Of a stretch of 64,000 nt of DNA, positions 38,112 through 61,285 are shown in pieces. The translations under genes were made by a program, and so were the position numbers. Position 1 is the first letter of the stretch; every line of letters begins with the position of its first letter. Source of the DNA: Vicinamibacterales bacterium (GTDB taxonomy: Bacteria > Acidobacteriota > Vicinamibacteria > Vicinamibacterales > Fen-181); the NCBI GenBank assembly GCA_036504215.1, contig DASXVO010000059.1, positions 62,001 to 126,000 of the forward strand, given 5' to 3'. The notes beneath the pieces are model-generated. The model had not been told where the DNA came from. It saw only the letters and a program-made list of their open reading frames with translations, and made no database searches.

Positions 38112-38264
38112 ACCCTGCGCTCACTTGTGGTGACCATGCTTCGCGCCCCGCGCACTCTATGAAACGGGCGTCCCCCGCGCGAGACGTTGGTCAACACCAC
38201 TCAGTCGAAGGGTAGGGCTCGACGGCGAGCGGACGGACCATCGCCGGACAGGGATCACGAAGGT

Positions 38265-39539
38265 ATGACCGAAGCATCGCTCGATACGCGACCCCAGCCA
38301 ACGCGGCTGTTCCGCTGGATGGTACTCACCGTCATCAGCTTCGCGGCGTTCGGGAACTACTACGTCTTCGACTGCATCGGCCCGCTGGCGAACCTGCTCA
38401 GCAAGCAGCTCGGGTTCTCGGATGCCAATATCGGCCTCCTGCAGGCGATCTACAGTTTCCCGAACGTCGTGATGGTACTCATCGGCGGGGTCATCATCGA
38501 CCGGATCGGGACGAAGAAATCGACGCTCATCTTCGGTGTCATCTGCTTTGTCGGTGCCTCGGTGACCGCGCTCACGCCAACCCTGCCGGTCATGGCGACT
38601 GGCCGGCTCATCTACGGCCTGGGCGCCGAGTCATTGACCGTGGCTGTCACGACGGCGATTGCGCGCTGGTTCCGCGGCAAGGAGTTGAGCTTCGGCTTCG
38701 GGATCAACCTCACCCTCTCGCGCTTCGGTTCGCTGGCGGCGCAAGTGTCACCGACCTGGGCGGCGTGGGCGTACACGTCGTGGACGTGGCCCCTGTATAT
38801 GGCGGTCGCTTTTGCCACCTTCTGCGTCATCGGCGCGCTGGGCTACTGGCTTCTCGAGTCGCTGGCCGAACGGCGGTACAACCTCGGGACGATCAAGACC
38901 GACAAGGTGGTCCTCAAGGACATTTTCAAGTTCGACCGCTCGTACTGGTACATCGTCGCCCTGTGCGTCACGTTCTACTCAGGGATCTTCCCGTTCCAGA
39001 CCTTCGCGCAGAAGTACTTCGTCGAGGCGCACCACGCCTCACCCAAAGAGGCGTCGATGCTGGTCGGCATGCTGACGATCTTCGCGATGGTTGGCACGCC
39101 GCTGTTCGGCCTTCTGGTAGACCGCATCGGCCGGCGGTCGTTGCTCATGATGTTCGGCTCGATGCTGCTGATTCCGGTCTATCTGATCATGGCCTACTCG
39201 GACCTGCCCCTCGGGGTTCCAATGGCCATGATGGGAATTGCCTTCTCTCTCATCCCGGCAGTGATGTGGCCGTCGGTGGCGTACGTGGTGGACGAGTCGA
39301 GACTGGGCACGGCCTACGGGCTGATGACCATGGTCCAGAATATCGGCCTGTTTGGCTTCAACCTGCTGATCGGCTGGGCGAACGACACGTGGCACGCCAG
39401 CGCCACCAATCCCGGCGGTTACACGGCCGGCATGTGGATGTTCTCGTGTCTGGGCCTGTTGGGGTTGCTGTTTGCGAGTCTGTTGAGGCGGAGCGACCGA
39501 GCACGCGCGCGCGAACTCGCGATGGCCGCCACCGCCTGA
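38265..39539 (+). CDS. MFS transporter, MFSD1/SLC49-like
   Basis: A 424-residue carrier with 12 predicted helices. It has the MFS loop 2-3 motif in GGVIIDRIGTKKSTL (about 78-92) and its second copy GLLVDRIGRRSLLMMF (about 280-295). The start FGNYYVFDCIGPLANLLSKQLGFSDANIGLLQAIYSFPNV is like eukaryotic MFSD1 and bacterial relatives, and MFSD1 carries dipeptides. With the glycosylasparaginase gene just upstream, uptake of small peptides or glyco-asparagine is a testable idea. ATG 38265 was chosen; the longer frame upstream is unlikely. Confidence 0.85.
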   Translation: MTEASLDTRPQPTRLFRWMVLTVISFAAFGNYYVFDCIGPLANLLSKQLGFSDANIGLLQAIYSFPNVVMVLIGGVIIDRIGTKKSTLIFGVICFVGASVTALTPTLPVMATGRLIYGLGAESLTVAVTTAIARWFRGKELSFGFGINLTLSRFGSLAAQVSPTWAAWAYTSWTWPLYMAVAFATFCVIGALGYWLLESLAERRYNLGTIKTDKVVLKDIFKFDRSYWYIVALCVTFYSGIFPFQTFAQKYFVEAHHASPKEASMLVGMLTIFAMVGTPLFGLLVDRIGRRSLLMMFGSMLLIPVYLIMAYSDLPLGVPMAMMGIAFSLIPAVMWPSVAYVVDESRLGTAYGLMTMVQNIGLFGFNLLIGWANDTWHASATNPGGYTAGMWMFSCLGLLGLLFASLLRRSDRARARELAMAATA

Positions 39540-39873: not shown

Positions 39874-41469
39874 GTGAATAGAGACAGCTTTGCCCACTCC
39901 GCATGGACGTTGCTCATCGCCGGGTATCTCCTGCTCGGAGGTGTCCCGGCCACGGCGCAGACGATGGTCCGCTCGTTCGACGGCGACAAAGGTCCCGGCC
40001 TGGCCGTGTGCGAGGCGAACACCACGCACTGCGGCCGCCAATCCGAGACCAACGTTGGCGCCAGCGGCCAGCAGGTCGTGCAGATCACCTGGCAGAACCT
40101 CGCGGTGTACGACAAGAGCGGCAAGCTGCTGCGATCGACACCCCTGACGGCGTTCATCAGGAACGCCGGCCTCGACCCGATGCCGCCGGCAGCGAAGAAG
40201 GGGGCGAGCCGTGGCCCCTACGAGCCGCACGTCGTGTACGACGAGTTCATCGGCCGCTGGATCATCGGCGTGACCGGCAAGGCCGACTGCCTGATGGTCA
40301 GCGCCACCTCGGACGCCCTTGGCGCCTGGGGGGGCGTCTACCCCTCCTGCCTCGAAGGAGGGCCGTGCCTGGACAACGATCCGGGCACGAAGCTCGGCTA
40401 CGACAAGAACGGCGTGTACTTCTGCGCCGCCCACGCCAATGACGACAATCCCGAAACGGCGCCGCACACTGCCTGGGACTGCTTCGCGCTGAGGTCCGAC
40501 GAAGCGAAAGCAATCGCCCGGCGCACGCCGCCCGCCCATCTCAACCGCGTCCACAACATTCCACTCGACGTCGTGCCGGCGGTGGACAACAACCCGAACA
40601 AGGCGCCGAACGCTCCGGCGTTCTTCCTCACCAAGAGTTGCGACCACAACGGGCCGCTCAATGCCTGCCAGAAGTCCGACAACTTCCCGTTCACCTGGCT
40701 GGTGAACACGTTCTCGTGGAATGGACCGGCGGGGACCTACAACGCGAGCGGCGCGCAGCAAGCGATCAAGACCGACGTCGGCTCGAAGGCCAACAAGTGG
40801 CTGTTCAACACTCCGTGTTGCGGCCTCGACCTGGGCGCTCCCCAGGCAGGAACCGACATCCGGGTGCGGGTCGGCACGATGCACCGGCTGATGAACGTCA
40901 TGCAGGCCGGCTCGCACCTGCACGCCGTGCTCGGGTCCGGCCCGTGTACGAAGGACTGCGGTTCGCAGGGCTCGGACACGAACAACATCATGATCTACGT
41001 CGATCTCGATTGCTCGGATCCGGCCGCGTGCGTCGTCGCGCACACCGCGAAGATCTCGGGCGCGGACGTCAACCCGGCGTGGGGCACCGTCGGCGTGGAC
41101 ACGCAAGGAAACGTCGGCATCATCGCGGCGTCGGTGACCGCCAAGACGTATCCGAGCGTGCTGATGTGGTGGCGGAAGAAGACGGATGCACCCAACGTGT
41201 TCAGCGGCTCGGTTACCGTGGCCGCCGGCACCGCGCCCTACACCTGCATGAAGGATCGCACGATGGACAAGGGCCAGAACTACCTCGTGCTGTTCGGCAG
41301 CTCGGTCGGCATGCTGACGGCCCGCGATCCGCTGGACGGGACGAAGCTGTGGACGAGCCAACAGTATGCCAACGACGCCCGGCCCTGCGTGTACAGCACG
41401 CGGATCGTCGAGTACCAGATCGCGCCGGCCCCCGGGAAGCCGACCGCGAAGGCCGCGCCGAGGCGCTGA
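39874..41469 (+). CDS. Cys-rich secreted protein of unknown function
   Basis: 531 residues. GTG 39874 follows TGGAGG at 7 bases. A signal peptide ends about residue 29 (PATAQT). The mature protein has about 15 Cys, many in close pairs (CEANTTHC, NTPCCGLD, GSGPCTKDCG, LDCSDPAAC), suggesting disulfides and an extracellular place. Repeated strand pairs such as EPHVVYDEFIGRWIIGVTG and GTVGVDTQGNVGIIAASV look like propeller blades, but the repeat pattern is not regular enough to assign. A family of sialidase/propeller-like proteins of this kind occurs in soil bacteria; no activity is known to me. It lies upstream of the rhamnosidase pseudogene. Confidence 0.75.
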   Translation: MNRDSFAHSAWTLLIAGYLLLGGVPATAQTMVRSFDGDKGPGLAVCEANTTHCGRQSETNVGASGQQVVQITWQNLAVYDKSGKLLRSTPLTAFIRNAGLDPMPPAAKKGASRGPYEPHVVYDEFIGRWIIGVTGKADCLMVSATSDALGAWGGVYPSCLEGGPCLDNDPGTKLGYDKNGVYFCAAHANDDNPETAPHTAWDCFALRSDEAKAIARRTPPAHLNRVHNIPLDVVPAVDNNPNKAPNAPAFFLTKSCDHNGPLNACQKSDNFPFTWLVNTFSWNGPAGTYNASGAQQAIKTDVGSKANKWLFNTPCCGLDLGAPQAGTDIRVRVGTMHRLMNVMQAGSHLHAVLGSGPCTKDCGSQGSDTNNIMIYVDLDCSDPAACVVAHTAKISGADVNPAWGTVGVDTQGNVGIIAASVTAKTYPSVLMWWRKKTDAPNVFSGSVTVAAGTAPYTCMKDRTMDKGQNYLVLFGSSVGMLTARDPLDGTKLWTSQQYANDARPCVYSTRIVEYQIAPAPGKPTAKAAPRR

Positions 41470-41539
41470 GACTGCTGGCGTGCACGGCGTCTCTCACGCC
41501 GCGACGGTCCGCCGTTCCCACGCGGTTGGAGGACCCGTT

Positions 41540-44134
41540 ATGACGCACCGAATGTGGACCGCCACGTGCGTGTGGCTGATCGCCCTGATGGCGCAGTCTG
41601 CTGCCGGATCGCCACTGGCGCCTTCCGGCCTGCGCTGCGAGTACCTCGTGGATCCGATCGGCATCGACGTCACGAGCCCACGTCTGTTCTGGACGCCTCA
41701 ACACACCGGGCGCGGGATCAACCAGGCGGCGTATCAAATCCTGGTCTCGTCGCGTCCCGAGGCGCAGACTGGCGACCAGTGGGACAGCGGAAGAGTCGCG
41801 TCTGGCGAGTTCACACAGGTTGTCTACGCCGGAAAGCCGCTCGCGAGCGCGCGCACCTACTACTGGAAGGTGCGCTACTGGGACCAGGACGGCCAGGTGA
41901 GCCCGTACAGCGCGACCGGCCGGTTCGAGACGGGCCTGTTGGGCGCCTCGGACTGGAAGGCGAAGTGGATCCGCGGCGGCAATCAACTGCGCCGGGAGTT
42001 CTCGCTTCCCGCCCGGCCCGTTCGGGCCCGCGCGTTCGTGTCCGGGATCGGCTTCTACGAACTCCGGTTGAACGGGCGCAAGGTCGGCGACCACGTGCTC
42101 GATCCCGCGTAGACGAACTACGCCAAACGCGTGCTCTACGCGACGTACGACATCACCAGCCAGCGCGACGAGGGCCCGAACACGGTCGGGATCCTGCTCG
42201 GGCAGGGACGATACGGCGCAAGGGCCGCCCTCGTGCAACTCGACATCGAGTTGGCCGGTGGCCGGAAGATGCAGGTGGTGAGCGACGCCTCGTGGAAGGG
42301 CGCCGACGGACCGATCGTCTCCGACAGCATCTACAACGGGGAAACCTACGACGCGCGCTGGAGAGCGGTCAGCCTGAACGACCCGCCAGCCGGTGTGCTC
42401 TCGGCGCAGACGATGCCGCCCATCCGCATGGTCGGTGATCTGATCCCCCTGACGATGGCCAGCCCGCGGCCGGGTGTGTACGTGTACGACTTCGGCCAGA
42501 ATTTCGGCGGGTGGATCCGCTTGCGCGTCACCGGGCCGGCCGGCACCACGGTCCGGCTGCGGCACGCCGAACTCGTCTACGCCAATGGCATGGTGAACGT
42601 GGAGACGCTGGGCGGGGCCCGCGCAACGGACACCTATACCCTGCGTGGCGCAGGTGACGAGGAGGAATACGAGCCCCACTTCACGTACCACGGGTTCCGC
42701 TACGTCGAGGTCACCGGCTACCCCGGCACGCCGCCGCTGAACGCGCTGCTCGGAAGAACCGTCCATGCGGACGTGAAGCCCGTGGGGGGCTTCGCGGCAT
42801 CCAAGACAATCCTGAACCAGTTGCAGCGCCTCATCCTGTGGGGCACCAGGACGAACCTCCACGGCATCCCCACCGATTCCGACCAGCGCGCGGAGCGAAT
42901 GGGGTGGATGGCCGATGCGCACCTGGCCGCCGAGACCGCCATGCTCAACTTCGACATGGCCGCCTTCTACACGAACTTCCTGCGGGACGTCCGGGACGAT
43001 CAGCAGGAGAACGGATTGGTGCCCAACGTTGCGCCCGCCAGCGAACTCGTCAAGCCCCCGACCGACCCGGCCTGGGGCGCCGCGTACCCGCTCATCGCGC
43101 AGTACATGTACGAACACTACGGCGATCGCCGGATCCTGGAGAAGCACTTCGAGAGCCTTCGGCGCTGGGCAGACTACCTGCAGGCGACCAGCGAGAACAG
43201 CATCTCGACCGTCGATCGGTTCGGTGACTGGGTGGCCATCGAGCGCACGCCCGGCAGTCTGGTGTCGACCTGCTTCTACTACTGGAGCGTCGACATCGTG
43301 GCACGCGCGGCGGCCGTGCTCGGCAAGGCGGCCGAGGCCGGCCGCTACGGCAACGGCACCCAGACCGGCGACGCCCTGCCGCTCTACCTGGGCATGGTGC
43401 CCGTTCCCGCCGACGGCCGTCTCACCACCGCGGCAAACGCCGCGATGGCGCCGGTCCGCGCCCGTCAGGCGGTGCCGAGCCGTGTGTTCAACAACCTTCG
43501 GCTCGACGTGCTGTACACGCACGACACCCATCTGACGACCGGCATCCTGGGCGCCAAGTACATCATGCCGGTGCTCACGCGGATGGGGCGCCCCGAGCTG
43601 GCGTACGATCTGGCGACCGCGACGACCTACCCCAGCTGGGGATTCATGATCGAGCACGGGGCCACGACCCTCTGGGAGATCTGGCAGCACAAGACCGGCG
43701 GCGGGATGAATTCGCACAACCACCCGATGTTCGGGAGCGTCGGCGCATGGCTCTACGAAGCGCTGGCAGGCATCAATTTCGACGTGACGCAGCCTGGCTA
43801 CCGGCGCATCCGAATCGAGCCGCAGGTGGTGCGCGACCTGGAATTTGCGTCCGGCTCGTTGGAGACGGTGCGCGGCCGCATCTGCTCCGCATGGTCCCGC
43901 GCCGGGGATGTCCTCCGAATGGAGATCACGATCCCGGTCGGCAGCACCGCCGGGATTGTCGTTCCGAAGACGCGCCTCGAGGATGTGTCGATCGAGGAGG
44001 GCGGGCGCGTGGTCTGGCAGGCGGGTGCCTTCAAGCCGGGCGTCCCGGGTCTCACCGGTGGGCAGGAAACCAGCACCGCTGTCGTGCTCGAGGTCGGGCC
44101 GGGAACCTACGTCTTCGAGCGAAAAGGACGATAG
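41540..44134 (+). pseudogene. alpha-L-rhamnosidase (GH78-like), interrupted by in-frame TAG
   Basis: One reading frame of 864 codons with a single TAG at 42110-42112 (codon 191). The text around it is VLDPA-stop-TNYAKRVLYATYDIT, where family members have VLDPGWTNYDKRVLYRTYDVT, so a Trp codon TGG has become TAG. Otherwise the protein is complete: signal peptide (to about residue 24), N-terminal Ig-like domain, GH78 beta-sandwich (DFGQNFGGWIRLRVTGPAGTTVRLRHAELVYANG), and (alpha/alpha)6 barrel with the catalytic acidic region IPTDSDQRAERMGWMADAH and WGFMIEHGATTLWEIW. It would release L-rhamnose from glycans or glycosides. It is either a recent pseudogene, a sequencing error or an amber-suppressed gene; the intact flanks favour a recent event. 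ATG 41540 follows TTGGAGG. Confidence 0.85.
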
Positions 44135-45834: not shown

Positions 45835-46032
45835 GCGGCGGGCGGCCTTCGGTCGGCGCTCCCATGCACCGGTCAGATCACCAGGGTGGGGCGACCGGTG
45901 GACGATCGATGGCCGCATCCGCCACACAGAGTGGCGCGTCTGACAACCGGCCGGAACCAGACGACGACACCCGCGCGTGGCGGCGCGCGAGCGCAGTACG
46001 CCTCGGCGGGCGGGGTCACGGCCCATGCTAGA

Positions 46033-46048
46033 ATACCGTATACAACCT
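46033..46048 (+). promoter_or_regulatory. putative GntR-type operator, site 4 (autoregulation)
   Basis: ATACCGTATACAACCT (its complement reads AGGTTGTATACGGTAT) keeps the invariant TGTATA core but is the least AT-rich of the set. It overlaps a -10-like TAGAAT (46029-46034) and lies 39 bases before the gntR start (46087), where an autoregulatory operator is expected. Confidence 0.5.
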
Positions 46049-46086
46049 CGCGCCGAGCGGGGAGGCAGCCGGTCTCGGGAGGGGCA

Positions 46087-46791
46087 ATGATTCCAAAGAG
46101 CGGTCATCCGCAGTCACTGATCGAACTCGACCCCGCCGTCATTCCGCCGACATCGCTCCCCGACCGGATCTACGCCACGCTGAAGCACCGGATCCTGACG
46201 TGCGCGATGCTTCCGAGCAGCCGCATCGTCGAGAAGGAGTTGTGCAGCGAGATGCAGGTGTCGCGGACGCCGCTGCGCGAGGCCCTCAACCGCCTGGCCC
46301 TCGAGGGCCTCGTGAGAATCGTGCCGTTTCGCGGGTACGCGATTGCCGAGCTGACGGTCGACAACTTCCGTGAGTTGTGTGAGGTGCGGCGCGTCGTCGA
46401 GGCCGAGGCCGCCGGTCTGGCCGCCGCCCGCGCCAGCGAGCAGGACGTCAAGCGCCTGGAGCCCCTGGCCGAGCTTCGCTATCGGCGAGCGGATCGGCGA
46501 ACGTACGAGAAATACCTCCGTGCCAACAGCGTCTTTCACCAGGCGCTCGTCCAGTGCACCCACAACAGGCGCCTGGAGACGCTCGTGATGTCGGCGCTCG
46601 ACCAGCACCAGCGGCCCCTGTACTTGGGCCTCGGCGTCGGAGTCGATGGCAAGGCCTCGACCGCCGAGCACCGGGTGATCATCGAGGCGATCCGGCGTCA
46701 CGATTCCGACGAAGCGCGCAAGGTCATGGCCGACCACATCGTCCGAGCCGAAGAACGGATCGTGCTGGCGCTGCGCGCCGCCGGCTACTGA
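46087..46791 (+). CDS. GntR-family transcriptional regulator, FCD subfamily
   Basis: A 234-residue DNA-binding regulator. The winged helix is at 23-90 (LPDRIYATLKHRIL, SRIVEKELCSEMQVSRTPLREALNRLALEGLVRIVPFRGYAI); the FCD ligand-sensing helical bundle is at 91-225 with His151, His195 and His217 in positions of the metal/ligand site. The position usually Asp before the first His is Asn147. FCD regulators (FadR, LldR, DgoR, UxuR-like) usually respond to organic or sugar acids and bind short palindromes with TTGTATACAA-like cores. The ten AT-rich sites in this window have that core and one precedes this gene, so it is the natural candidate regulator. ATG 46087 follows GGGAGGGG. Confidence 0.92.
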   Translation: MIPKSGHPQSLIELDPAVIPPTSLPDRIYATLKHRILTCAMLPSSRIVEKELCSEMQVSRTPLREALNRLALEGLVRIVPFRGYAIAELTVDNFRELCEVRRVVEAEAAGLAAARASEQDVKRLEPLAELRYRRADRRTYEKYLRANSVFHQALVQCTHNRRLETLVMSALDQHQRPLYLGLGVGVDGKASTAEHRVIIEAIRRHDSDEARKVMADHIVRAEERIVLALRAAGY

Positions 46792-50471: not shown

Positions 50472-52208
50472 CTACCGGCGCCCGGTCGCGATCGCAAGTC
50501 CCGCGACCACGATCCCGGTGATTCCCAACCAGGCCCACCCGGCGGCGGTGGACGCGCCGGCGCCAGCCGGCAGCGCGCGCGCCGCGCCGGACGTCGCGTC
50601 GATGACCGGCACCATCCACCTGAAGACCGTCGCCTGGAGGTACGTCATCACCGAGACGATCGCAACCAGCAGCAGCGAATGTCGTACGGTGAAACGAAAC
50701 AGATCGGACTCGTTCCCGGCCAGGCCTGTTGCCGCGCACGCCACCGCGATTGACTGCGGGGAGATCATCTTCCCCGTCACGCCGCCCGACGAGTTGGCGG
50801 CGATCGTCAGCACCGGGTTGACGCCGATCCGCCGTGCCGTCACCGTCTGAAGCGGGCCGAACACCGCGTTCGCCGACGTATCGGATCCCGTCGTGAAGAC
50901 GCCGAGCCACCCGAGTACGGGCGAAAACAGCGGAAACAGCGAGCCCGTGCCCGCGACCGCCATCCCCATCGTGGCCGTCATGCCGGATGAGTTCACGATG
51001 TGGGCAAACCCGAGTACCGCGGAGACCGTCACGAGCGGCGCAGCCAGCGACCTGGCCGTGCGGTTGAACAACCGCACCGCGTCAGCCGGTCGCATCCCGG
51101 TGATGACGACCGAGACGATCGCGGCCAGCAGGATCACGCTGCCGGTGGCCGACAGCACGTTGAGCGAGTAGATCGCCGCGATCGGCGCCGGATTGTCGGG
51201 CGCCACGATCGCGTTGTGGATCAGCGGAAACGGCACGGCCAGCGTCGCCTGTTCGAGCAAGGCCTTGACCGGCTTGACGCCCCAGCTGCCGACGAGGATC
51301 GTGAGCACCAGGAACGGACTCCAGGCCTTCGCCACCTTCGAGAAGGGCTGGACGGATGGAACGCCGGCCCGGCCCTCGTCGCGGAAACGAAACACCCGCG
51401 CCGGCTGCCAGGCGCGCAGGAACAGCACCAGGCACACGATGGAGCACAGCGATGAGATGATGCCGGGCAACAAGGGGCCCAGGTATTGGGATGTCCACCA
51501 CTGGGCGACGGCGAAGGATCCGCCGGACACGAGCGCTGCCGGCCAGACCTCCTTCACTCCGCGACGGCCCGACATGGTGAACACCAGCCAGAACGGGATG
51601 ATCAGCGAGACCAGGGACAACTGCCGGCCGACCATCTGCGAGATGAGCCGGTCATCGATGCCGGTGACCTGGCTCGCGACGAGGATCGGCGTGCCGATCG
51701 AGCCGAACGCCACCGGCGCGGTGTTGGCGATGAGGCAGAGGCCGGCCGCGAAGAGCGGCTCGAACCCCAATCCAACGAGCATCGCCGCGGAGATCGCGAC
51801 CGGCGTGCCGAAGCCCGACGCGCTCTCGAGGAACGCTCCGAAGCTGAAGGCGATGAGCAGCGCCTGCAGTCGCCGATCTTCCGTGATCGAGGCAATCGAG
51901 TTCTTGATGATCTCGAACTGGCCCGTCTCGACGGTGATGCGGTACAGGAACATGGCGGCGACGACGATCCAGCCGACCGGGAAGAGGCCGTACAGCGCGC
52001 CCTGCAGGGTCGACGCCAGCGCGAGGGACAGCGGCATCTTGTAGATGACGACGGCGACCAGGACGGTCAGGCCGGTGGCCCAGAGGCCGGCCACGTGTCC
52101 CCTCATCTTGTGCGCCGTCAGCGCCCAGAACAGAAAGGTGATCGGCAGGGTGGCCGCCAGCGCGGAGAAGAAGATCTGACCAAGAGGATCGTAGGATTGG
52201 GTCCACAC
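50472..52208 (-). CDS. L-lactate permease family (LctP) carrier
   Basis: A 578-residue inner-membrane protein with about 13-14 helices, the length of LldP/LctP. Diagnostic blocks are clear: YRITVETGQFEIIKNSIASITEDRRLQALLIAFSFGAFLESASGFGTPVAISAAMLVGLGFEPLFAAGLCLIANTAPVAFGSIGTPI (about 88-172) and SSGMTATMGMAVAGTGSLFPLFSPVLGWLGVFTTGSDTSANAVFGPLQ with AANSSGGVTGKMISPQSIAVA near the end. The family imports lactate, glycolate or similar 2-hydroxy acids with protons. GTG 52208 is used, with GAGGAG upstream. It shares operator site 6 with the divergent PLP-enzyme gene at 52324. Confidence 0.95.
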   Translation of the reverse strand: MWTQSYDPLGQIFFSALAATLPITFLFWALTAHKMRGHVAGLWATGLTVLVAVVIYKMPLSLALASTLQGALYGLFPVGWIVVAAMFLYRITVETGQFEIIKNSIASITEDRRLQALLIAFSFGAFLESASGFGTPVAISAAMLVGLGFEPLFAAGLCLIANTAPVAFGSIGTPILVASQVTGIDDRLISQMVGRQLSLVSLIIPFWLVFTMSGRRGVKEVWPAALVSGGSFAVAQWWTSQYLGPLLPGIISSLCSIVCLVLFLRAWQPARVFRFRDEGRAGVPSVQPFSKVAKAWSPFLVLTILVGSWGVKPVKALLEQATLAVPFPLIHNAIVAPDNPAPIAAIYSLNVLSATGSVILLAAIVSVVITGMRPADAVRLFNRTARSLAAPLVTVSAVLGFAHIVNSSGMTATMGMAVAGTGSLFPLFSPVLGWLGVFTTGSDTSANAVFGPLQTVTARRIGVNPVLTIAANSSGGVTGKMISPQSIAVACAATGLAGNESDLFRFTVRHSLLLVAIVSVMTYLQATVFRWMVPVIDATSGAARALPAGAGASTAAGWAWLGITGIVVAGLAIATGRR

Positions 52209-52262
52209 GGTTTCCGGAATCTCCTCGCAGCCGCCACACTCCGGGCTTGCGGAACAGAGAAC

Positions 52263-52278
52263 AGATTATATATTATAT
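52263..52278. promoter_or_regulatory. putative GntR-type operator, site 6
   Basis: AGATTATATATTATAT sits between the divergent LctP gene (starts 52208, minus) and the PLP-enzyme gene (starts 52324, plus), so one site could control both. On the plus strand TTGCGG (52247) and TATTAT (52271) are 18 bases apart; on the minus strand TATAAT is present within the site. Confidence 0.65.
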
Positions 52279-52323
52279 TCACGGCGTCGCGCTGTTTCTC
52301 TTCAGCCGACAGGAGGCCTCGAT

Positions 52324-53646
52324 ATGGCGACCGCATACCAGAATGGCCTGTTCTCTCCCACGCTGATGGAGGAGATCAGGAACCAGTTCGTCTACGTGGA
52401 TTGGGACCCCTACTCCGGTAAACGGATCTTCTTCGACGCCGCGTCCGGCTCATGCCGGCCCAAGCGCGTCGTCGAGGCGATGGGCGCCGAAACCTGTCTG
52501 CCCGACCAGCAGGGCCGCGCCAATCCCGGATCCCGGCACGCCGTCGACGTCACCGCGAAGGGGATTCAGGACTTGATGATCTTCTTCGGCGCGAAGTCGG
52601 GCCAGACGATTCCCGGGTGGAGCAGCAGCCACGTCATCTATCGCATCACCGACGCCGTCCTCTCCACGATTCCCGGCACCAACGTCGTCACCACCGGCCT
52701 CGACCACGCCTCGGTGCGGAGCGCGCTGACGCAGTTCTCGTCGAACTACGGAAAGAAGGAGCGCATCGCCGAGCCGGGTCGCGACACAGCGTCGGTCGCA
52801 ACGGAGACCATCCTCCGCCACATCGACAGGAACACCTGCTTCCTGGTCCTGACGCACACCTCGAACGTCACCGGCGAGGTGTACGACGTCAAGGCGATCA
52901 TCCGCGAGGCGCGGAAGATCAAGCCGGAACTCTTCACGATGGTCGATGGTGTCCAATACTCGCCATCCGCGGTGGTCGACGTCGAGGACATAGGCGCCGA
53001 CGCCTACGTCATCGCGCCCTACAAGAACTACGGCGTCAAGGGCTGTGGGTACGCGCATGTGTCCGACCGCCTCGCCACGCTGCCGCACTGGAGATACACG
53101 CTCAAACCGGCCAACAGCTGGGACCTCGGCGGCGTCGAGCACCAGTCGTACGCGGCGTGGTCCGCGGTCGTGGACTACCTGTGCTGGCTCGGCAGCCGGT
53201 TCACCGGCGCCACCGACCGGCGCAGCCTCGTCGTTGCCGCCATGACGGCGATCAAGGCGCACCAGGTCGGCCTCCTGTCGCTGCTGCTGCACGGCACGGG
53301 CGGGGCGCCTGGCCTGAAGGACCTGAGGCACGTGACCGTTTACGGGGTGGGCCCTGACCTCTGGCGCCAGTCCCTGCTCGTCGGGTTCAACCTGGCTGGA
53401 ATCGAGTCGGACCGGGGATGTGCCATGTACCAGGAGGCACAGCTCAGACTGCACGCACCTGGCCACGACCCGTTCTTCGCGGCGATGCTCCAGCAACTCG
53501 GGATCGGAAGCTTCATCAGGCTCTCGGGGAGCCACTACAACACGCCGCAGGAAATCGAACGCTTCCTGCGCGTGACCGCCGCGATCGGGCGCGCGGCCGA
53601 AGGCTCGCCGGCCGGCGCCGACAAGGAACTGTCGTCCGCGCGCTGA
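52324..53646 (+). CDS. Class V aminotransferase-fold PLP enzyme
   Basis: A 440-residue cytoplasmic PLP protein. Blocks: IFFDAASGSCRPKRVVEAM, HASVRSALTQF, FLVLTHTSNVTGEVYDVKAIIREARK, TMVDGVQYSPSAVVDVEDIGADAYVIAPYKNYGVKGCGYAHVSDRL with the Schiff-base Lys234, then an atypical C-terminal domain. It resembles cysteine desulfurase/isopenicillin epimerase-like enzymes but lacks the SufS Cys loop, so transamination, elimination or epimerisation of an amino acid is likelier than sulfur transfer. ATG 52324 follows ACAGGAGG. It shares operator site 6 with LctP. The esterase gene follows after 176 bp. Confidence 0.85.
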   Translation: MATAYQNGLFSPTLMEEIRNQFVYVDWDPYSGKRIFFDAASGSCRPKRVVEAMGAETCLPDQQGRANPGSRHAVDVTAKGIQDLMIFFGAKSGQTIPGWSSSHVIYRITDAVLSTIPGTNVVTTGLDHASVRSALTQFSSNYGKKERIAEPGRDTASVATETILRHIDRNTCFLVLTHTSNVTGEVYDVKAIIREARKIKPELFTMVDGVQYSPSAVVDVEDIGADAYVIAPYKNYGVKGCGYAHVSDRLATLPHWRYTLKPANSWDLGGVEHQSYAAWSAVVDYLCWLGSRFTGATDRRSLVVAAMTAIKAHQVGLLSLLLHGTGGAPGLKDLRHVTVYGVGPDLWRQSLLVGFNLAGIESDRGCAMYQEAQLRLHAPGHDPFFAAMLQQLGIGSFIRLSGSHYNTPQEIERFLRVTAAIGRAAEGSPAGADKELSSAR

Positions 53647-53822: not shown

Positions 53823-54752
53823 ATGCGTCTCATCCATCGAATCGCCGTCGGTCTCCTCGTCATGGCGGCCGCGTGCCACAGCGCCGTGGCGCACGCGCAG
53901 GTCGCCGACCCCCTGGCTGGTGCAGCCGCGGTCATCGCCGGCTACATCGTCCGCTCCAACATCACCTACCTCACCACCAACAACTGGAACGGCAAGCTCG
54001 ACGTCCATCAGCCGTTCAGCCCGTCCGACCCGTCGCCGAGGCCGACACTGGTTTACTTCCACGGCGGCGGGTGGACCAGTGGCGCCAAGGAAGATCGCGT
54101 CCACCAGCTGCAGCCGTACCTGCAGATGGGATGGTCCGTCGTCAACGTCGAGTACCGGCTCGCGACGGTCTCGCTCGCGCCGGCGGCGGTCGAGGACTGT
54201 CGATGTGCGCTTCGCTGGGTGATCGTGCACGCCAAGGAGTACCACCTCGATCCGGCGCGAATCGTCGTCACCGGTGACTCGGCCGGCGGTCACCTCGCGC
54301 TGATGACCGGGATGCTGGCCGCCTCGGCCGGCCTGGATCGCCAGTGCGCCGGCACCGAGGACCTGAAGGTGGCGGCCATCGTCAACTGGTACGGCGTCAC
54401 TGACGTTGCCGATCTGCTCGAGGGCCCGAACATGAAGACCTACGCCGTGAGGTGGTTCGGCGCGCTGCCCAATCGCGAACCCCTTGCGAGGCTGGTGTCC
54501 CCGCTCACCCACGTGCGGCCGGGACTGCCGCCCGTAATCACCATTCACGGCGATGCCGATCCGACCGTGCCGTACACCCACGCCGTGCGGTTGCACCAGG
54601 CGCTGACCGAGGCCGGCGTGCCGAACCAACTGGTCACCGTGCCGGGCGGCCGACACGGGCGCTTCGGCCAGGACCAGACCCTCAGGGCGTTGGTGGCCGT
54701 CAGGGAGTTCCTCGCCAGGCACAACCTGACGGCGCAGCCGCCCGGGAAGTGA
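53823..54752 (+). CDS. Secreted alpha/beta-hydrolase (esterase/lipase, BD-FAE-like)
   Basis: A 309-residue protein with a signal peptide (about 5-25, ending VAHAQV). Hormone-sensitive-lipase-like pattern: oxyanion HGGGW starting at His80, nucleophile Ser153 in VVTGDSAGGH, Asp in IHGDADPTVPY and His in PGGRHGRFG. The bifunctional feruloyl/acetyl-xylan type (BD-FAE) shares this layout, so deacylation of a glycan or small ester in the periplasm is plausible. ATG 53823 follows GGAGAACCAAGC. It is on the same strand as the PLP-enzyme gene and may be in the same transcript. Confidence 0.87.
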   Translation: MRLIHRIAVGLLVMAAACHSAVAHAQVADPLAGAAAVIAGYIVRSNITYLTTNNWNGKLDVHQPFSPSDPSPRPTLVYFHGGGWTSGAKEDRVHQLQPYLQMGWSVVNVEYRLATVSLAPAAVEDCRCALRWVIVHAKEYHLDPARIVVTGDSAGGHLALMTGMLAASAGLDRQCAGTEDLKVAAIVNWYGVTDVADLLEGPNMKTYAVRWFGALPNREPLARLVSPLTHVRPGLPPVITIHGDADPTVPYTHAVRLHQALTEAGVPNQLVTVPGGRHGRFGQDQTLRALVAVREFLARHNLTAQPPGK

Positions 54753-54787
54753 GGTGGTCGGGATCGGTCCGTGGCGGCCCAGGACGC

Positions 54788-54803
54788 ATATTGTATATTA
54801 TGT
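54788..54803 (+). promoter_or_regulatory. putative GntR-type operator, site 7
   Basis: ATATTGTATATTATGT matches the consensus at 14 of 15 defined positions and is 15/16 identical to site 2. It contains TATTAT as a possible -10. It precedes the small open frame at 54891, the gamma-glutamyltransferase-like gene and the MFS gene, which look like one operon. Confidence 0.65.
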
Positions 54804-54890
54804 ACCTCTCGACACGCCGGCTGGCGTCCGGGTGGCCGCGCTCGGCGGGGCCGGACAGGTTCGACGGGTTCAGCAACGGCGAGGGACCGC

Positions 54891-55172
54891 ATGGCGAGTT
54901 ACAGGCTGTTGTCGGATGCGCAGATCGCCGACGTGCACGACAACGTAGACGTGCTGCACCAGCGTGCATCCGAGGTCGACGCCCGTCACCAGCCGGAGGA
55001 GTGGTCCGGGGAAGCGTCGCAGCCTGTCGCGGCGCTCGTCGCCAGGCACAGGCCGGACGTCCAGTTGCCGCCGGACGGCGAGTGGCGGAGGGGAACCCCG
55101 GGAGCAGGCATCGCGCTGGACCATCCGGATCTGGCTTGCCCGTCAGGTAAAGGAGCGGCACATGTCAGTTGA
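54891..55172 (+). CDS. small protein of unknown function, first gene of the regulon operon
   Basis: 93 codons from ATG 54891, preceded by GAGGGA at 4-5 bases, ending 8 bases inside the next gene (overlap with ATG 55162). The N-terminus YRLLSDAQIADVHDNVDVLHQRA looks like a genuine helix and recalls the opening of trimethylamine-methyltransferase (MttB)-type proteins (RLLSDDEIE-IHEASL-VLEE), but the rest is Arg/Pro-rich and shows no family. It may be a small subunit, a truncated gene or a leader frame for translational coupling. Confidence 0.5.
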   Translation: MASYRLLSDAQIADVHDNVDVLHQRASEVDARHQPEEWSGEASQPVAALVARHRPDVQLPPDGEWRRGTPGAGIALDHPDLACPSGKGAAHVS

Positions 55173-56850
55173 TCGCTACATCCAGAATCCAGGCCCCAAG
55201 AAGCCCGCGACCGGGCTCGCCGCCGCGTGCAGCACCGATAGCGCGATCGCCACCGAGACCGTACTCGGCGTGCTTCGTGATGGCGGCAACGCCATGGACG
55301 CCGCCGTCGCCGCCTGCCTGGTCCAGGCGGCGGTCGAGCCGTTCATGACGAACCACACAGGCACCGTGACGTTCCTGTGTTACGAGGCGCGGACCCAGAC
55401 CGTCCACCAACTGGACAGCTCGGGCACCTTTCCCTCGGGGCTGCCCCCGTTCCAACCGGTGCCGCAGGGACACGGACCCTACGCTGCCGTGCCGCCGTCG
55501 GCGTGCATTCCAGGGTTCATGCCGGGGCTCAAGGCGATCCACGAGCGATTCGGCACTCGTCGGTGGGCGTCGCTCTGCGAGGACGCGATTCGCTGGGCCG
55601 ATGAAGGACATCCCGTCTCGAGCTTCGAGTACGGCCAGTACGTCTGGGCGCTCGACTTCGTCACCTATTTCCCGGAAGGGCGGGCCTTCTACCTGCCCGG
55701 CGGTTTTCCCGTGCCGGTTGGCGAACGATTTCGATTCCCGCAGATGGCAGACACGCTGCGGCGCGTCGCCGAATCCGGCCCCGACCACATGATCACCGGC
55801 GACTGGGCCCGCGCCTTCGTGGCCAAGGCGAACCAGATGGGCTGGCCGATCACGCTCGACCACATGACGGAGACGCCACCGCTCTGGACCGAACCGACTC
55901 GCTTCGATCACCGCGGCGTGGAAGTGGTGGGGCTCGGGTCGCCGCAGATACAGGGCCTGTTCTGCGCGTTGACGCTCGGCATTCTCGATCACCTCGATCT
56001 GGCGCACATGACGTGCGGCTCGGCCGATCATCTGTGGGCCATGGGGCAGGCGTTGCGGGTCGCCTCCCTGCACTGGGGCTACATGGGTGACGTACGCTTC
56101 GTCGGCGTGCCCACGGACGTCCTGCTGGACGACGCCTACCATCGGTCGCTCGCGCGTCTGCTCTGGGGCAGCCGGCCGAAGGCCGATTTGACCGGTCTGG
56201 TGGCTGCCGTTCCCAGGACCCAGTGGCTCTACAACGTAGGCTTCCTCACTGGTGGCGCAAAGCCGACCGGGGCCGGCAGCCAGCAGGATCGGCCGTCCGG
56301 CAGCTGCGAGTTGGCGATCGTGGACCGGGACGGCAACTGGGTTCAGATGATGAACACCCTGCAGTCGGGTGGCATCCCGGGAATGGTGGTGGGCGGAGTC
56401 CCCATGGTTGGGAGCCACGCCGCTTTCGGCATGATGACCAGCCCCATGGAGCACAAGCTCGTCAAGGGCATGCGGCAGCGGCAGACCGTCGGCAACACGA
56501 TGGTGTTCAAGGACAAGAAGCCGATCTGGTCGCTGGGCTCGCCGGGCAACGTGCACTGCACGGTGCCACAGGTGCTCGCCTACCGGCTGGATTTCGGGCT
56601 CGACCCGTACACGGCAGCCGACGCGCCTCGCATGCTGCCGATGACCGACGACTTCGGGTTGCTCGTCGAGGACCGCGTGTCGGCCGAGGCGCAGGCCGGT
56701 CTGGCCAGGCTCGGCGTCCGCGTCCAGGCGGCGCCGGCGTACGACTACCACATGGGGTCGTTTCAGATGTGCTGGCGCAACGAGCACGGCTCGCTCGATG
56801 CCTGCGCGGATCCGCGTCGATGCGGCGTCGCGGACGGATTGCGAGACTGA
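55162..56850 (+). CDS. Gamma-glutamyltransferase-like Ntn hydrolase
   Basis: A 562-residue protein of the GGT superfamily. N-terminal block: ATETVLGVLRDGGNAMDAAVAACLVQAAVEPFMTNHTGTVTFLCYEA (about 30-75), the GGNAVDAAVA signature. C-terminal block: QMMNTLQSGGIPGMVVGGVPM and MFKDKKPIWSLGSPGNVHCTVPQVLAYRLDFGLDPYTAADAPR (PG-GR-like end). At the autocleavage site, where GGT has TTH-SV-D with Thr as the nucleophile, this protein has SCE-AIVD (Ser381, Cys382), so Ser would replace Thr. There is no signal peptide, unlike periplasmic GGT. It may be a divergent amidohydrolase acting on gamma-glutamyl or related amides in the cytoplasm. ATG 55162 follows AAAGGAG. Confidence 0.85.
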   Translation: MSVDRYIQNPGPKKPATGLAAACSTDSAIATETVLGVLRDGGNAMDAAVAACLVQAAVEPFMTNHTGTVTFLCYEARTQTVHQLDSSGTFPSGLPPFQPVPQGHGPYAAVPPSACIPGFMPGLKAIHERFGTRRWASLCEDAIRWADEGHPVSSFEYGQYVWALDFVTYFPEGRAFYLPGGFPVPVGERFRFPQMADTLRRVAESGPDHMITGDWARAFVAKANQMGWPITLDHMTETPPLWTEPTRFDHRGVEVVGLGSPQIQGLFCALTLGILDHLDLAHMTCGSADHLWAMGQALRVASLHWGYMGDVRFVGVPTDVLLDDAYHRSLARLLWGSRPKADLTGLVAAVPRTQWLYNVGFLTGGAKPTGAGSQQDRPSGSCELAIVDRDGNWVQMMNTLQSGGIPGMVVGGVPMVGSHAAFGMMTSPMEHKLVKGMRQRQTVGNTMVFKDKKPIWSLGSPGNVHCTVPQVLAYRLDFGLDPYTAADAPRMLPMTDDFGLLVEDRVSAEAQAGLARLGVRVQAAPAYDYHMGSFQMCWRNEHGSLDACADPRRCGVADGLRD

Positions 56851-56879: not shown

Positions 56880-58175
56880 ATGACGCCAGACAGGGTCGGA
56901 ACCGAACAGGCCATCAAGCCCTGGACCCTCTATTCCGAGGGCCAGCGCTGGCGTCTGCTGGCGATCCTCTTTCTCGTGTCGACCTCGAACTACCTCGATC
57001 GCAACATCATTTCGATCCTGCTGGAACCCATCAAGCGGGAGTTCCACGTATCCGACACGCTGCTGGGTTTGCTGAGCGGCGTGTCGTTCGCGCTCTTCTA
57101 TGCGACGCTCGGCCTTCCCGTCGCCCGGTGGGCCGATCGCGGCAATCGGAAGCGCATCATCGCGCTGGCGCTCACGTGCTGGAGCGTGATGACGGCCGCC
57201 TGCGGCGTCGTGCAGTCGTACTGGCAACTGGCGCTGGCGCGGATCGGCGTCGGCGCGGGGGAGGCCGGGGCGATTCCGCCGGCCCAGTCGCTCATCGCGG
57301 ACTACTTCCCGCCCGAACGGAGGGCGGGCGCCTACGCGATCTTCACGGCGGCCGGCATGGCCGGCTACGTGTTGGGATTCGTCGCCGGTGGGCAGGTTGC
57401 GGTCGCCTACGGGTGGCGCATGTCGTTTCTCGTCGCCGGTCTGCCGGGCCTGGCTCTGGCTGTGCTGGTCCACCTCGGCCTCCGTGAGCCGCGGATGGCC
57501 GTCGGGTTCCAGGCCCTCGGAGGAACCCAGGAGCCGCTGGCCCGGACCGTGCGCCGTCTGGCCGGGAAGAAAGCCTATCGCTACGTCTTGATGGGGCAGA
57601 CCCTCTATTTCGTCGTCGCCTACGGCGTCCTCATCTTCGTGCCGTCGTTCCTGTTGCGGGTGCTCGGCCAGCCGCTCGGGAAGGTCAGCGTGCTCTATGG
57701 CACAACGGCCGCGGCAGGCTCCGTGCTCGGCACGCTCGGCGGCGGGTTCCTCGGAAACCGGCTCGGAGGCCGCGACGTCAGGTGGCTGGCGTGGCTGCCG
57801 GCCGTGGCGTGTGTGTTGACATACCCCGTGCTCCTGTTTGGGTTCACGTTGAACGACCTCTGGCCGTTCCTGGCGTGCGGGTTTGTCACCAACCTGCTCT
57901 TGAACGCGGGGTTGCCCCTGGTCTACGCAGCCATTCAGGCGGTCTGCGGCGCCAAGCGTCGCGCGATGGCCGTGGCCGTGATGTTCTTCTTCGCGAACCT
58001 GATCGGCTTCGGACTCGGCCCGGTGCTGACCGGCGCCATCAGCGACGCCCTGACCGCCAGGTGGGGCGTCGGCGGACTTCGCTACGCGCTCATGAGTGTC
58101 TCGACGGTGCTGCTGGCCTCGTCCTGGTGCTTCTACCGCTGCGGATGCGCCATGCCGAACGACATCGAGGAATAG
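56880..58175 (+). CDS. MFS transporter, spinster-like
   Basis: A 431-residue carrier with 12 predicted helices. Loop 2-3 motif: LPVARWADRGNRKRIIALA (about 80-98); start: LYSEGQRWRLLAILFLVSTSNYLDRNIISILLEPIKREFHVSDTLLGLLSGVSFALFY, characteristic of the spinster-like (SLC63-type) and organic-anion MFS groups. It is 29 bp after the GGT-like stop and probably co-transcribed; it likely imports the GGT-like enzyme's substrate. The gene end (58133-58175) overlaps the convergent maturase remnant. Confidence 0.9.
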   Translation: MTPDRVGTEQAIKPWTLYSEGQRWRLLAILFLVSTSNYLDRNIISILLEPIKREFHVSDTLLGLLSGVSFALFYATLGLPVARWADRGNRKRIIALALTCWSVMTAACGVVQSYWQLALARIGVGAGEAGAIPPAQSLIADYFPPERRAGAYAIFTAAGMAGYVLGFVAGGQVAVAYGWRMSFLVAGLPGLALAVLVHLGLREPRMAVGFQALGGTQEPLARTVRRLAGKKAYRYVLMGQTLYFVVAYGVLIFVPSFLLRVLGQPLGKVSVLYGTTAAAGSVLGTLGGGFLGNRLGGRDVRWLAWLPAVACVLTYPVLLFGFTLNDLWPFLACGFVTNLLLNAGLPLVYAAIQAVCGAKRRAMAVAVMFFFANLIGFGLGPVLTGAISDALTARWGVGGLRYALMSVSTVLLASSWCFYRCGCAMPNDIEE

Positions 58176-58426
58176 AGCGCTTCCAGAGCCCGTGCCCCAG
58201 GCGCCCCACTCGTCATCGAGCAGAATGCCGTCGGTCTGGAATCCGTGTAGTCGCGAATGAAGGTCTCGAGCACTCCGCCTGGCATCGTCCACGAACCCGG
58301 GCCCGAGGAGAGATGCTCGTTCTCCAGGTAGGAGCAGTACCGGCAGGCGAGGTTGCAGCTCGGCCCGATCGGCTTTGCGATGACGTCGAACGGGGCGCCG
58401 CGCGGCGGGCGAGCAGCAGCGGACAT
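58133..58426 (-). pseudogene. Radical-SAM sulfatase-maturase (anSME) N-terminal fragment
   Basis: From ATG 58426 the reading is GAPFDVIAKPIGPSCNLACRYCSYLENEHLSSG...MPGGVLETFIRDYTDSRP, matching the first 60 residues of anaerobic sulfatase-maturing enzymes, with the 4Fe-4S motif CxxxCxxC intact (CNLACRYC). The family runs to about 390 residues; here the frame leaves the family after about residue 60 and stops at residue 97. The rest of the gene appears lost, its end overwritten by the MFS 3' end. The gene starts 11 bp after the enolase-superfamily stop, so it was once the second gene of that operon. A sulfatase-linked pathway in the ancestor is suggested. Confidence 0.65.
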
Positions 58427-58437
58427 GACGCGCCCGC

Positions 58438-59828: not shown

Positions 59829-60881
59829 ATGATGCGTCGTACTGCGATCGCGACCGTGGCGGCCCTGATTCTGACGATGTCCATCGGAGCCCCGAGGAGC
59901 GCTGCCGCCGCCGCCCCCCCTCCGGCGGACTTCCACATCATCAAAACGATTACGACTCTCGCCGTGATCGACTACATCACGATCGACCCGCAGGGGCGCA
60001 GGGCCTACGTCGGTCGGGGCCACGCCGTGTCGGTCTTCGACATCGACCAGGGCAAGTTCGTCGGCGAAGTCGTGGATGTGCCGCGCGCCCACGGCGTCGC
60101 GTTCGCGCCGGGCGGTAGCGAGGGATTCGCCACCGCCGGCAGCACCAACGAGGTCGTGGTCTTCGACCTCAAGACCCTCAAGGTGACGCGCCGGATCAAG
60201 GCCGGCCTGAAGCCGGACGCGATCATCTACGAGCCCGCCTCCAAGAAGATCTACGTGTTCAACAGCAACGGCGGAACCGTGTCGATCATCGACCCGGCCT
60301 CCCCGGCCACGCCGCTCGTCACCGTCGAGGTCGGCGGGACGCTCGAGGGCGCCGTGTCGGACGGCGCGGGCCGCGTGTACGTGAATGCGATGGAAAGAAA
60401 CGACGTCGCCGTCATCGACACCGCCCAGGCGAAGACCATCGCCCGTTGGCCGGTCGGGCCGGGAACCGCGCCCATCGCCATGGCCATCGACACCGAGCAC
60501 CATCGCCTGTTCGTGGGCTGCGAGAACAAGAAACTCATCATCCTGAGCACGGATGACGGCAAGGTCCTCGGCGAGGCGCCGATCGGTGGTGGCTGCGATG
60601 GCCTCGTCTTCGACCCACAGACAGGCCTCGTCTTCTCGGCCAACGGCCTCGACGGCACGCTGACGGTCCTGCGCGAAGGCCCAGGGGGCAAGTTCGCTCC
60701 GGTGCAGACGCTCCCGACGGCCAAGATGGCCCGGACGATCGCGATGGATCCGAAAACCCGCAACCTCTACCTGCCGACCATGATTCCCGCGCAGATCGAA
60801 TTCGGGTCCTTCGGTCTCCTGGTTGTGGGAACCGAGCCCCACGGCGCGGCGAAATCCCCCGCCCCGGCAGCGGCCAGATAG
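59829..60881 (+). CDS. Secreted YVTN-family beta-propeller protein (regulon copy)
   Basis: A 350-residue secreted protein. Signal peptide about 3-27 (RRTAIATVAALILTMSIGAPRSAAA). Six or seven YVTN blades: YITIDPQGRRAYVGRGHAVSVFDID, VAFAPGGSEGFATAGSTNEVVVFDLKT, AIIYEPASKKIYVFNSNGGTVSIIDP, VSDGAGRVYVNAMERNDVAVIDTAQ, AIDTEHHRLFVGCENKKLIILSTD, LVFDPQTGLVFSANGLDGTLTVL. It could bind a substrate or partner in the periplasm. ATG 59829 was chosen because GGTGGAGATC precedes it; ATG 59805 is possible. It follows operator site 9. Confidence 0.85.
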   Translation: MMRRTAIATVAALILTMSIGAPRSAAAAAPPPADFHIIKTITTLAVIDYITIDPQGRRAYVGRGHAVSVFDIDQGKFVGEVVDVPRAHGVAFAPGGSEGFATAGSTNEVVVFDLKTLKVTRRIKAGLKPDAIIYEPASKKIYVFNSNGGTVSIIDPASPATPLVTVEVGGTLEGAVSDGAGRVYVNAMERNDVAVIDTAQAKTIARWPVGPGTAPIAMAIDTEHHRLFVGCENKKLIILSTDDGKVLGEAPIGGGCDGLVFDPQTGLVFSANGLDGTLTVLREGPGGKFAPVQTLPTAKMARTIAMDPKTRNLYLPTMIPAQIEFGSFGLLVVGTEPHGAAKSPAPAAAR

Positions 60882-60897
60882 GTCGGACCGGCCGGGC

Positions 60898-61182
60898 ATG
60901 ACGGACATCGCACACGTCCGCAGGAATCAGGAAACGCCGATCGTGGCAGGGGGAACGCACGCGTTTCTGCGGTGGCTCCCATGGCGGGTGCTCCTGCCCG
61001 TCGCCGTGGGCGTCGGCGTGGCGCTCGTGCCCGCGCCGTCCGGTCTCACCCTGTCGGCCTGGCGCTATTTCGCGCTGTTCGCCGCGGTGGCGGTCGGCCT
61101 CGTGGTCGAGCCGGTGCCCGCCGCGGGCGTCGGCTTCATCGGCATGGCGGCCGCGGTCCGGTTGACAGCATATGATATATAA
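60898..61182 (+). pseudogene. DASS/SLC13 anion:sodium symporter N-terminal fragment
   Basis: 95 codons from ATG 60898, 17 bp after the propeller stop. The reading WLPWRVLLPVAVGVGVALVPAPSGLTLSAWRYFALFAAVAVGLVVEPVPAAGVGFIGMAAAV gives the first two helices of divalent-anion:Na+ symporters (dicarboxylate/tricarboxylate carriers of the CitT type). The family runs to about 470 residues. The frame ends exactly inside operator site 10 (LTAYDI-stop). It looks like the stub of a carrier whose body was lost when the downstream promoter and gene came to lie here. Confidence 0.65.
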
Positions 61183-61185
61183 TCT
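61170..61185 (+). promoter_or_regulatory. putative GntR-type operator, site 10
   Basis: ATATGATATATAATCT matches site 3 at 14 of 16 positions and contains TATAAT (61178-61183). It lies 101 bases before enolase-superfamily gene C (61286). TTGACA at 61162-61167 is only 10 bases before TATAAT, too close to be its -35. Confidence 0.6.
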
Positions 61186-61285
61186 CCGCCAGTCGCGGGC
61201 GCGGATCACGTCCCGTTGGAGCGCGCCCGCAAGTCGGACATCACTCGCCGAGGAGCGTTCATCGACCGATCGAGGAGAACCCACC

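Follow-up and report, generated by a model that had tools for sequence, protein, structure and literature searches.

A 2015 comparison of 47 proteins resembling gamma-glutamyltransferase (GGT) calls the nucleophilic threonine conserved in all GGTs known, as stated in an excerpt of that report (PMC4568574). Excerpts of a review describe serine replacements at this residue in two true GGTs, the T380S form of the H. pylori enzyme and the T399S form of the B. licheniformis enzyme. Both mutants are processed slowly yet completely, with activity losses of 92% and 89%, respectively, and the B. licheniformis T399C form is not processed (PMC8062742). According to excerpts of a third report, the T421S and T421C exchanges in LmbA2991, a protein with the GGT fold, each abolish self-cleavage and activity; an exchange capacity of the N-terminal nucleophile (Ntn) is mentioned there for Ant6 (PMC5519988). 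Because serine mutants process in the two true GGTs but not in LmbA2991, a natural serine enzyme seems plausible by analogy, but it must have adapted. We found no report of a natural serine at the GGT nucleophile site in the open-licence papers searched. Here we describe a 562-amino-acid (aa) GGT-superfamily protein that carries Ser-Cys-Glu (SCE) at the positions of Thr391-Thr392-His393 of E. coli GGT. It is encoded in a 64,000-nucleotide stretch of a Vicinamibacterales bacterium (assembly GCA_036504215.1, contig DASXVO010000059.1, positions 62,001 to 126,000), called the window throughout. The features of the gene are as follows.

55162..56850, + strand: SCE-type GGT-superfamily protein, 562 aa; open reading frame (ORF) without internal stops, assigned by PF01019 match, structural model and alignments
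56221..56289, + strand: linker, residues 354-376, of low confidence in the AlphaFold model (predicted local distance difference test, pLDDT, below 50), directly preceding the Ser381 strand
56302..56304, + strand: Ser381 (AGC), at the E. coli Thr391 position in alignments; proposed nucleophile, with a predicted cleavage point between Gly380 and Ser381
56305..56310, + strand: Cys382-Glu383 (codons 56305-56307 and 56308-56310), at the Thr392-His393 positions in alignments; invariant in the SCE subgroup

The register at the site is the same in every alignment made. In the phmmer alignment to E. coli GGT (2e0w), for which the E. coli numbering was derived by offset, the second block opens with Glu383 on His393, which places Cys382 on Thr392 and Ser381 on Thr391. 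The stretch from the site to the downstream VD..GN motif is free of gaps in this alignment, and MAFFT gives an identical register when the protein is aligned with paralogues from its own genome or with relatives. The first-pass annotation, made from the letters of the window alone, had read the site in the same way, and no alignment places a threonine there. A misalignment by one residue is ruled out by the lack of gaps near the site, and a stray mutation or sequencing slip is ruled out by the presence of SCE in 29 of 29 relatives.

The protein matches PF01019 at 221.1 bits against a cut-off of 27, with residues 36-554 aligned to positions 2-511 of the 512 in the profile. An AlphaFold model was built from an alignment of 29 rows, comprising the window protein and 28 relatives (the truncated L031 was excluded), and it reached a pLDDT of 89.3 and a predicted template modelling score (pTM) of 0.91. 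It was compared with GGT precursors, among them the B. licheniformis T399A form (4y23; Z 45.3 over 498 residues) and the E. coli T391A form (2e0w; Z 43.4), and the predicted model thus has the GGT fold. Strand 381-387 of the model opens at Ser381, after the disordered stretch 354-376, which in the model resembles the linker that precedes the nucleophile in Ntn precursors. This is the Ntn arrangement, in which a Thr, Ser or Cys opens a central strand behind a linker. Structure prediction had been suggested in the first-pass annotation as the means of locating the nucleophile, and it points to Ser381.

There are 29 relatives of the window protein, recovered in a single scan of species genomes, and they are 40-63% identical to it. 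They come from several phyla, with sources that include Gemmatimonadota, Sphingomonadales, Steroidobacter, Peristeroidobacter, Pelomonas, Devosia, Cucumibacter, Streptomyces, an Acidobacteria metagenome-assembled genome (MAG), Eremiobacterota and two Firmicutes-type MAGs. Residues S381, C382, E383, D388, G391, N392, W393, Q395 and Q401 are invariant in the 29-row alignment. In a plasmid collection, identity is 48-57% for the best three records and drops to 31% for the fourth, so the SCE group stands apart.

Seven full-length paralogues from the window's genome were read (L001-L007) and all have Thr at the site; the remaining GGT-like matches of this genome are an N-terminal half (L008), a C-terminal piece and the window gene. 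Among seven genomes of the family (E 1e-100), the SCE gene was found in none besides the window's own, and among 396 genomes of the phylum (E 1e-70, three candidates scored in each) the only SCE locus came from the window's own genome. The other phylum loci that were read carry S-N/E-H (three in G060, and others in G096 and G391) or Thr (G270 and G337). Since the gene was not found in the family and phylum genomes searched, the window's own excepted, its transfer between lineages is possible. Recent arrival of foreign DNA, as judged by composition, was considered and rejected, as the GC content near the enzyme gene (0.66-0.68) matches that of the rest of the window (0.63-0.70).

The serine is found well beyond the SCE proteins. 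Among 80 aligned rows, the site residue is Ser in 52 and Thr in 28, and the latter residue is present in all nine plasmid GGT outgroups (L041-L049). Trees were computed without the site columns, and all three of them separate the Ser rows from the Thr rows at one branch, such that a single change is needed. The support for this branch, given as Shimodaira-Hasegawa-like approximate likelihood-ratio test (SH-aLRT) values, is 99 in the 80-row tree and 100 in a 76-row tree from which four long branches were removed, and in a 63-row tree with full bootstraps it is 100/99. In the 63-row tree, a branch with 100/100 support sets off the SCE rows. In addition, all 51 rows counted from three Ser subgroups have Trp215 (the single S-T-H row, L070, is outside this count), and none of the 28 Thr rows does. 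The rows were sampled via the SCE profile or SCE neighbourhoods, and the split is a property of these sampled rows rather than of all PF01019. By alignment and tree, then, there is a conserved Ser-bearing branch of the GGT superfamily with at least three subgroups, namely S-C-E, S-N/E-H and H-S-D/Y. The first-pass annotation had suggested that the enzyme may define a new cytoplasmic branch; the branch is wider than was thought there, and its invariant residue is Ser rather than Cys.

The H-S-D proteins commonly accompany SCE proteins. In 7 of 29 loci the SCE gene has a further PF01019 protein nearby whose site reads H-S-D, and in one more (L028) the nearby protein reads H-S-Y. Of the 11 whole genomes that were searched at E 1e-30, seven (G402, G403, G404, G407, G408, G409 and G411) have an H-S-D protein no more than 20 kb from an SCE gene, and for the other four none is listed near it at that threshold. 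The H-S-D family rows are L011, L015, L021, L022, L025, L027, L030, L071, L073, L076, L081 and L085, and two of seven aligned H-S-D proteins have N-termini that by eye resemble twin-arginine (Tat) signals. In a model of an H-S-D protein, built from seven rows with a pLDDT of 74.0, a low-confidence stretch (405-414) precedes Ser415 and a strand starts one residue past this serine.

The SCE proteins keep part of the GGT core. Asp388, the first oxyanion-hole Gly, and a Thr or Ser at the position of E. coli T409 (Thr/Ser399) are kept in 32 of 32 SCE rows. The pocket for the glutamyl group is another matter. Arg114, Asn411, Ser462 and Ser463 are what we take to be the gamma-glutamyl-binding residues of E. 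coli GGT, and their equivalents in the window protein are S87, Q401, Q441 and T442. In all 32 SCE rows Gln takes the place of Asn411, Ser462-Ser463 is not retained, and the Arg114 position holds mostly Leu, Thr or Ala, with Arg noticed only in L027. Because the residues that hold glutamate are mostly lost, a gamma-glutamyl substrate is improbable, and on these substitutions the window protein is unlikely to be a true gamma-glutamyltransferase. It also scores 178.9 bits against the TIGR00066 equivalog model, which has a cut-off of 357.85. These are signs of a changed function, a possibility raised in the first-pass annotation.

The same annotation had remarked on the missing export signal, and the observation holds across the subgroup. 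No N-terminal export signal is visible in the 29 SCE proteins of the alignment by Kyte-Doolittle hydropathy (no dedicated signal-peptide predictor was run), the highest mean over 12 residues within the first 30 residues being 1.21. By eye, paralogues L001, L003, L005 and L006 are unlike SCE proteins in having long hydrophobic N-termini.

Several described proteins share part of this picture. Known GGTs (2dbu/2e0w, 4y23) resemble the SCE proteins in whole-chain fold, in the linker before the site, in the Thr or Ser at T409, and in the first oxyanion-hole Gly. They differ in having Thr-Thr-His rather than Ser-Cys-Glu and in the other respects noted above, including the equivalents of Arg114, Asn411, Ser462-Ser463 and Gly484, which are mostly substituted in the SCE proteins. 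A GGT-family 'cephalosporin acylase' from Bacillus halodurans (2nlz) is similar in fold (Z 40.1, 486 residues) and, like the Thr-type paralogues L003 and L004, lacks Arg at the Arg114 position. However, its small-subunit start is aligned as G-G-T-V-Y, and therefore has Thr, and the identity is about 26%. HpxW (5hft), a GGT-family protein that is presumably an oxamate amidohydrolase with a Thr nucleophile, gives Z 23.0 over 291 residues when one chain is compared. The S45 hydrolases, such as penicillin G and cephalosporin acylases, are Ser-type Ntn enzymes, and Ser as the N-terminal nucleophile would be a feature in common with the SCE proteins. Some S45 acylases also have Gly ahead of the nucleophilic Ser, but they are a different family by sequence and by details of fold. 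No S45-type acylase is among the fold-comparison rows shown, which is not evidence of absence. LmbA, LmbA2991 and Ant6, the C-C hydrolases of 4-alkylproline pathways, have the GGT fold with altered chemistry (6j3a, Z 36.3). Excerpts of the report on them indicate that the superfamily accepts non-glutamyl substrates, and that the LmbA-type nucleophile is Thr, unlike the Ser of the SCE rows, with Ser or Cys not tolerated in LmbA2991 (PMC5519988). Nothing points to a pathway that these hydrolases and the SCE proteins have in common.

We consider it probable that the window protein is a cytoplasmic, self-processing, Ser-type Ntn amide hydrolase of the GGT superfamily that acts on an imported peptide-like compound. 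The enzyme would be made as a single chain in the cytoplasm, where Ser381 would cut after Gly380 and become the N-terminal nucleophile of the small subunit, like Thr391 in E. coli GGT. An importer encoded next door would supply the compound, this being the major facilitator superfamily (MFS) transporter in the window and a TonB receptor or an oligopeptide ATP-binding cassette (ABC) importer elsewhere. The processed enzyme may then hydrolyse an amide bond of a small peptide-like or N-acyl compound, with gamma-glutamyl groups probably not being the substrate. Ser381, rather than Cys382, is the likely nucleophile judging from the alignments, because the Ser is constant in 52 of 52 Ser rows while the residue that follows it varies (C, N, E, D, Y or T). 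A shift of the Ntn position by one, with a cut between Ser381 and Cys382, would make use of a cysteine that is invariant in 32 of 32 SCE rows, and Cys is a normal Ntn nucleophile in other families according to excerpts of PMC5519988. This is nevertheless very unlikely, given that the sister Ser subgroups have N, E, D, Y or T at that position with the Ser unchanged, that no gap lies between the site and the VD..GN motif, and that the model strand opens at Ser381.

Alternatively, the chain might remain uncut, with Ser-Cys-Glu serving a structural or ligand-binding role in a pseudoenzyme or binding protein that has kept the GGT fold. The replacement of His393 by Glu and of Gly484 by Asn (28 of 32 SCE rows), together with the failure of LmbA2991 T421S to process, speaks for this reading. 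We judge this reading unlikely, as Ser381 and the three core positions described above are retained in every SCE row, the sister subgroups hold Ser while the next residue changes, and the gene clusters look catabolic. An inert, unprocessed protein is possible, but the unvarying core is harder to reconcile with it. Least probable of all is a standard gamma-glutamyltransferase, or glutathione hydrolase, in which Ser is tolerated. The fold and the overall PF01019 match agree with it, as does the name 'gamma-glutamyltransferase' that the Prokaryotic Genome Annotation Pipeline (PGAP) gives to plasmid-borne SCE relatives. However, the TIGR00066 score falls well below its cut-off, the equivalents of Arg114, Asn411, Ser462, Ser463 and Gly484 are substituted in most or all SCE rows, and an export signal is not visible.

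Some observations weigh against the active Ser-type hydrolase that we favour. The second oxyanion-hole Gly (the Gly484 equivalent) is the one replaced by Asn in most SCE rows. The residue before the site is Gly in 30 of 32 SCE rows, but is variable in the 28 Thr rows (D in nine, G in nine, S in four, N in three, Q in two and E in one). The Arg114 equivalent is missing outside this branch too, in 16 of 28 Thr rows (Arg in 12 of 28). Neighbourhoods differ by lineage, and one substrate for all SCE proteins does not fit. Further Ser or Thr lineages may be missing, because sampling was by SCE profile or neighbourhood. There is also the abolished self-cleavage of LmbA2991 T421S and T421C (PMC5519988). 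The first-pass statement that members need Thr is nonetheless too strong, in view of the slow but full processing of the T380S and T399S enzymes (PMC8062742).

Gene neighbourhoods were compared for 29 loci and the window, with gene calls from a heuristic based on GC content at the third codon position (GC3), which misses some genes, the window MFS gene among them. The neighbour clusters, labelled from scanned members only, include MFS transporters (11), TonB receptors (10), TetR regulators (7), FolD (6), amidohydrolases (6) and SBP_bac_5 proteins (6). One cluster of DUF885 neighbours is present in eight loci, and another is present in six, its scanned member in L034 being DUF885. Genes for sarcosine-oxidase-like subunits and PurU lie by the SCE gene in four loci (L018, L021, L023 and L030), three of which (L018, L021 and L030) also have FolD; this suggests the clearance of an N-methyl group. 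S9 peptidases, an M55 D-aminopeptidase, an amidase, hydantoinase A/B and MTTB were found in single scanned loci. The SCE copy on a Lichenicola plasmid adjoins an oligopeptide ABC importer and two DUF885 genes, and that on a Pseudonocardia plasmid adjoins amidohydrolase, S9 peptidase and MFS genes. The Pseudonocardia copy (L040 12001-13627) seems broken, as it is recovered by tblastn in two pieces and the annotation covers only its end. Taken together, the SCE clusters suggest breakdown of imported peptide-like compounds. A single substrate could not be named from the neighbours: the combination of sarcosine oxidase, FolD and PurU, labelled from L021, is confined to 4 of 29 loci, and hydantoinase A/B and MTTB occur in one scanned locus each.

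The MFS partner pointed out in the first-pass annotation does recur. The window MFS has tblastn matches in 12 of 31 SCE loci. Six of these are close, with 48-57% identity across more than 400 residues, and the rest, at 28-40% identity, could be any MFS. The homologue is directly beside the SCE gene in three of the six closer loci (L012, L013 and L017).

A wider scheme is also possible, although we hold it only tentatively. A single split of the GGT superfamily may have separated enzymes with Thr from those with Ser (the S-C-E, S-N/E-H and H-S-D/Y subgroups, marked by an invariant Trp215), and the Ser enzymes would be a class of self-processing amide hydrolases in their own right. In many genomes the S-C-E and H-S-D proteins would act in pairs to degrade unusual peptides, such as those that are N-methylated or that bear D-amino acids, and in some lineages the sarcosine-oxidase-like proteins, FolD and PurU would clear the methyl group. 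A Ser branch that is natural and conserved allows a direct test of the role of the Thr methyl group and of how the fold adapts to its loss; Ser mutants of true GGTs are crippled, as excerpts of PMC8062742 describe. It also draws attention to intracellular amide hydrolases of catabolic gene clusters as an unexplored class, whose SCE members are likely misnamed when automatically labelled 'gamma-glutamyltransferase'.

In the window, the SCE gene is set among genes marked by a putative operator. The features nearest to it, and the candidate regulator, are listed here.

45886..46791, + strand: GntR/FCD regulator (profile match), candidate reader of the operators, linked to them by position
50472..52208, - strand: LctP-family lactate permease (profile match), divergent from the gene at 52324
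52262-52279, no strand assigned: operator copy between lctP and the aminotransferase class V gene (pattern match)
52324..53646, + strand: aminotransferase class V or cysteine desulfurase-like protein (profile match), in the operator-marked set
53823..54752, + strand: alpha/beta hydrolase of the BD-FAE family (profile match), upstream of the enzyme gene
54787..54804, no strand assigned: putative operator, consensus CATATNATATATNATATG with three mismatches, upstream of the enzyme-MFS pair and 358 bases before the ATG
56880..58175, + strand: MFS transporter, 29 bases 3' of the enzyme gene, with homologues near SCE genes elsewhere

The enzyme and MFS genes are likely in the same operon. There are eight copies of the 18-bp palindrome CATATNATATATNATATG in the window when up to three mismatches are allowed, compared with none in 100 shuffles, and they start at window positions 4468, 32701, 44213, 50167, 52262, 54787, 59742 and 61169. 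The whole 5.92-Mb genome holds nine copies, eight of them in the window and one on contig C43, and a reversed-pattern control gives one. The sites are placed ahead of or between operons. Two of them, at 32701 and 44213, abut or overlap the next ORF when it is given its longest possible start, and the one at 61169 takes in the end of a truncated symporter ORF. This distribution points to a putative regulon that lies nearly all within one 57-kb stretch, with the GntR/FCD gene inside it, and from its position we infer that the GntR/FCD protein binds the 18-bp sites. The enzyme is probably induced together with this local catabolic regulon. The operator-marked set also contains TonB-type receptors, an alpha-L-rhamnosidase, enolase-superfamily proteins and transporters.

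A small ORF ahead of the enzyme gene (54891-55172) was considered as a conserved element and rejected, as a search of 31 loci gave no relative of it (best E 0.73). Elsewhere in the operator-marked set, an Asparaginase_2-family Ntn protein is followed by an MFS gene of its own (37014-39539), in parallel with the SCE enzyme-MFS pair. The alpha-L-rhamnosidase gene (41366-44134) is apparently split by an in-frame stop, with two ORFs in the same frame matching successive parts of Bac_rhamnosid_N (positions 2-33 and 42-169). The symporter ORF (60823-61182) appears to be a remnant, matching just the start of the sodium:sulfate symporter family (positions 5-67 of 472) and ending at the operator 61169-61186. 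Finally, a frame on the - strand at 58133-58437 has a CxxxCxxC motif, presumably like that at the start of a radical-SAM protein, and is apparently a fragment.
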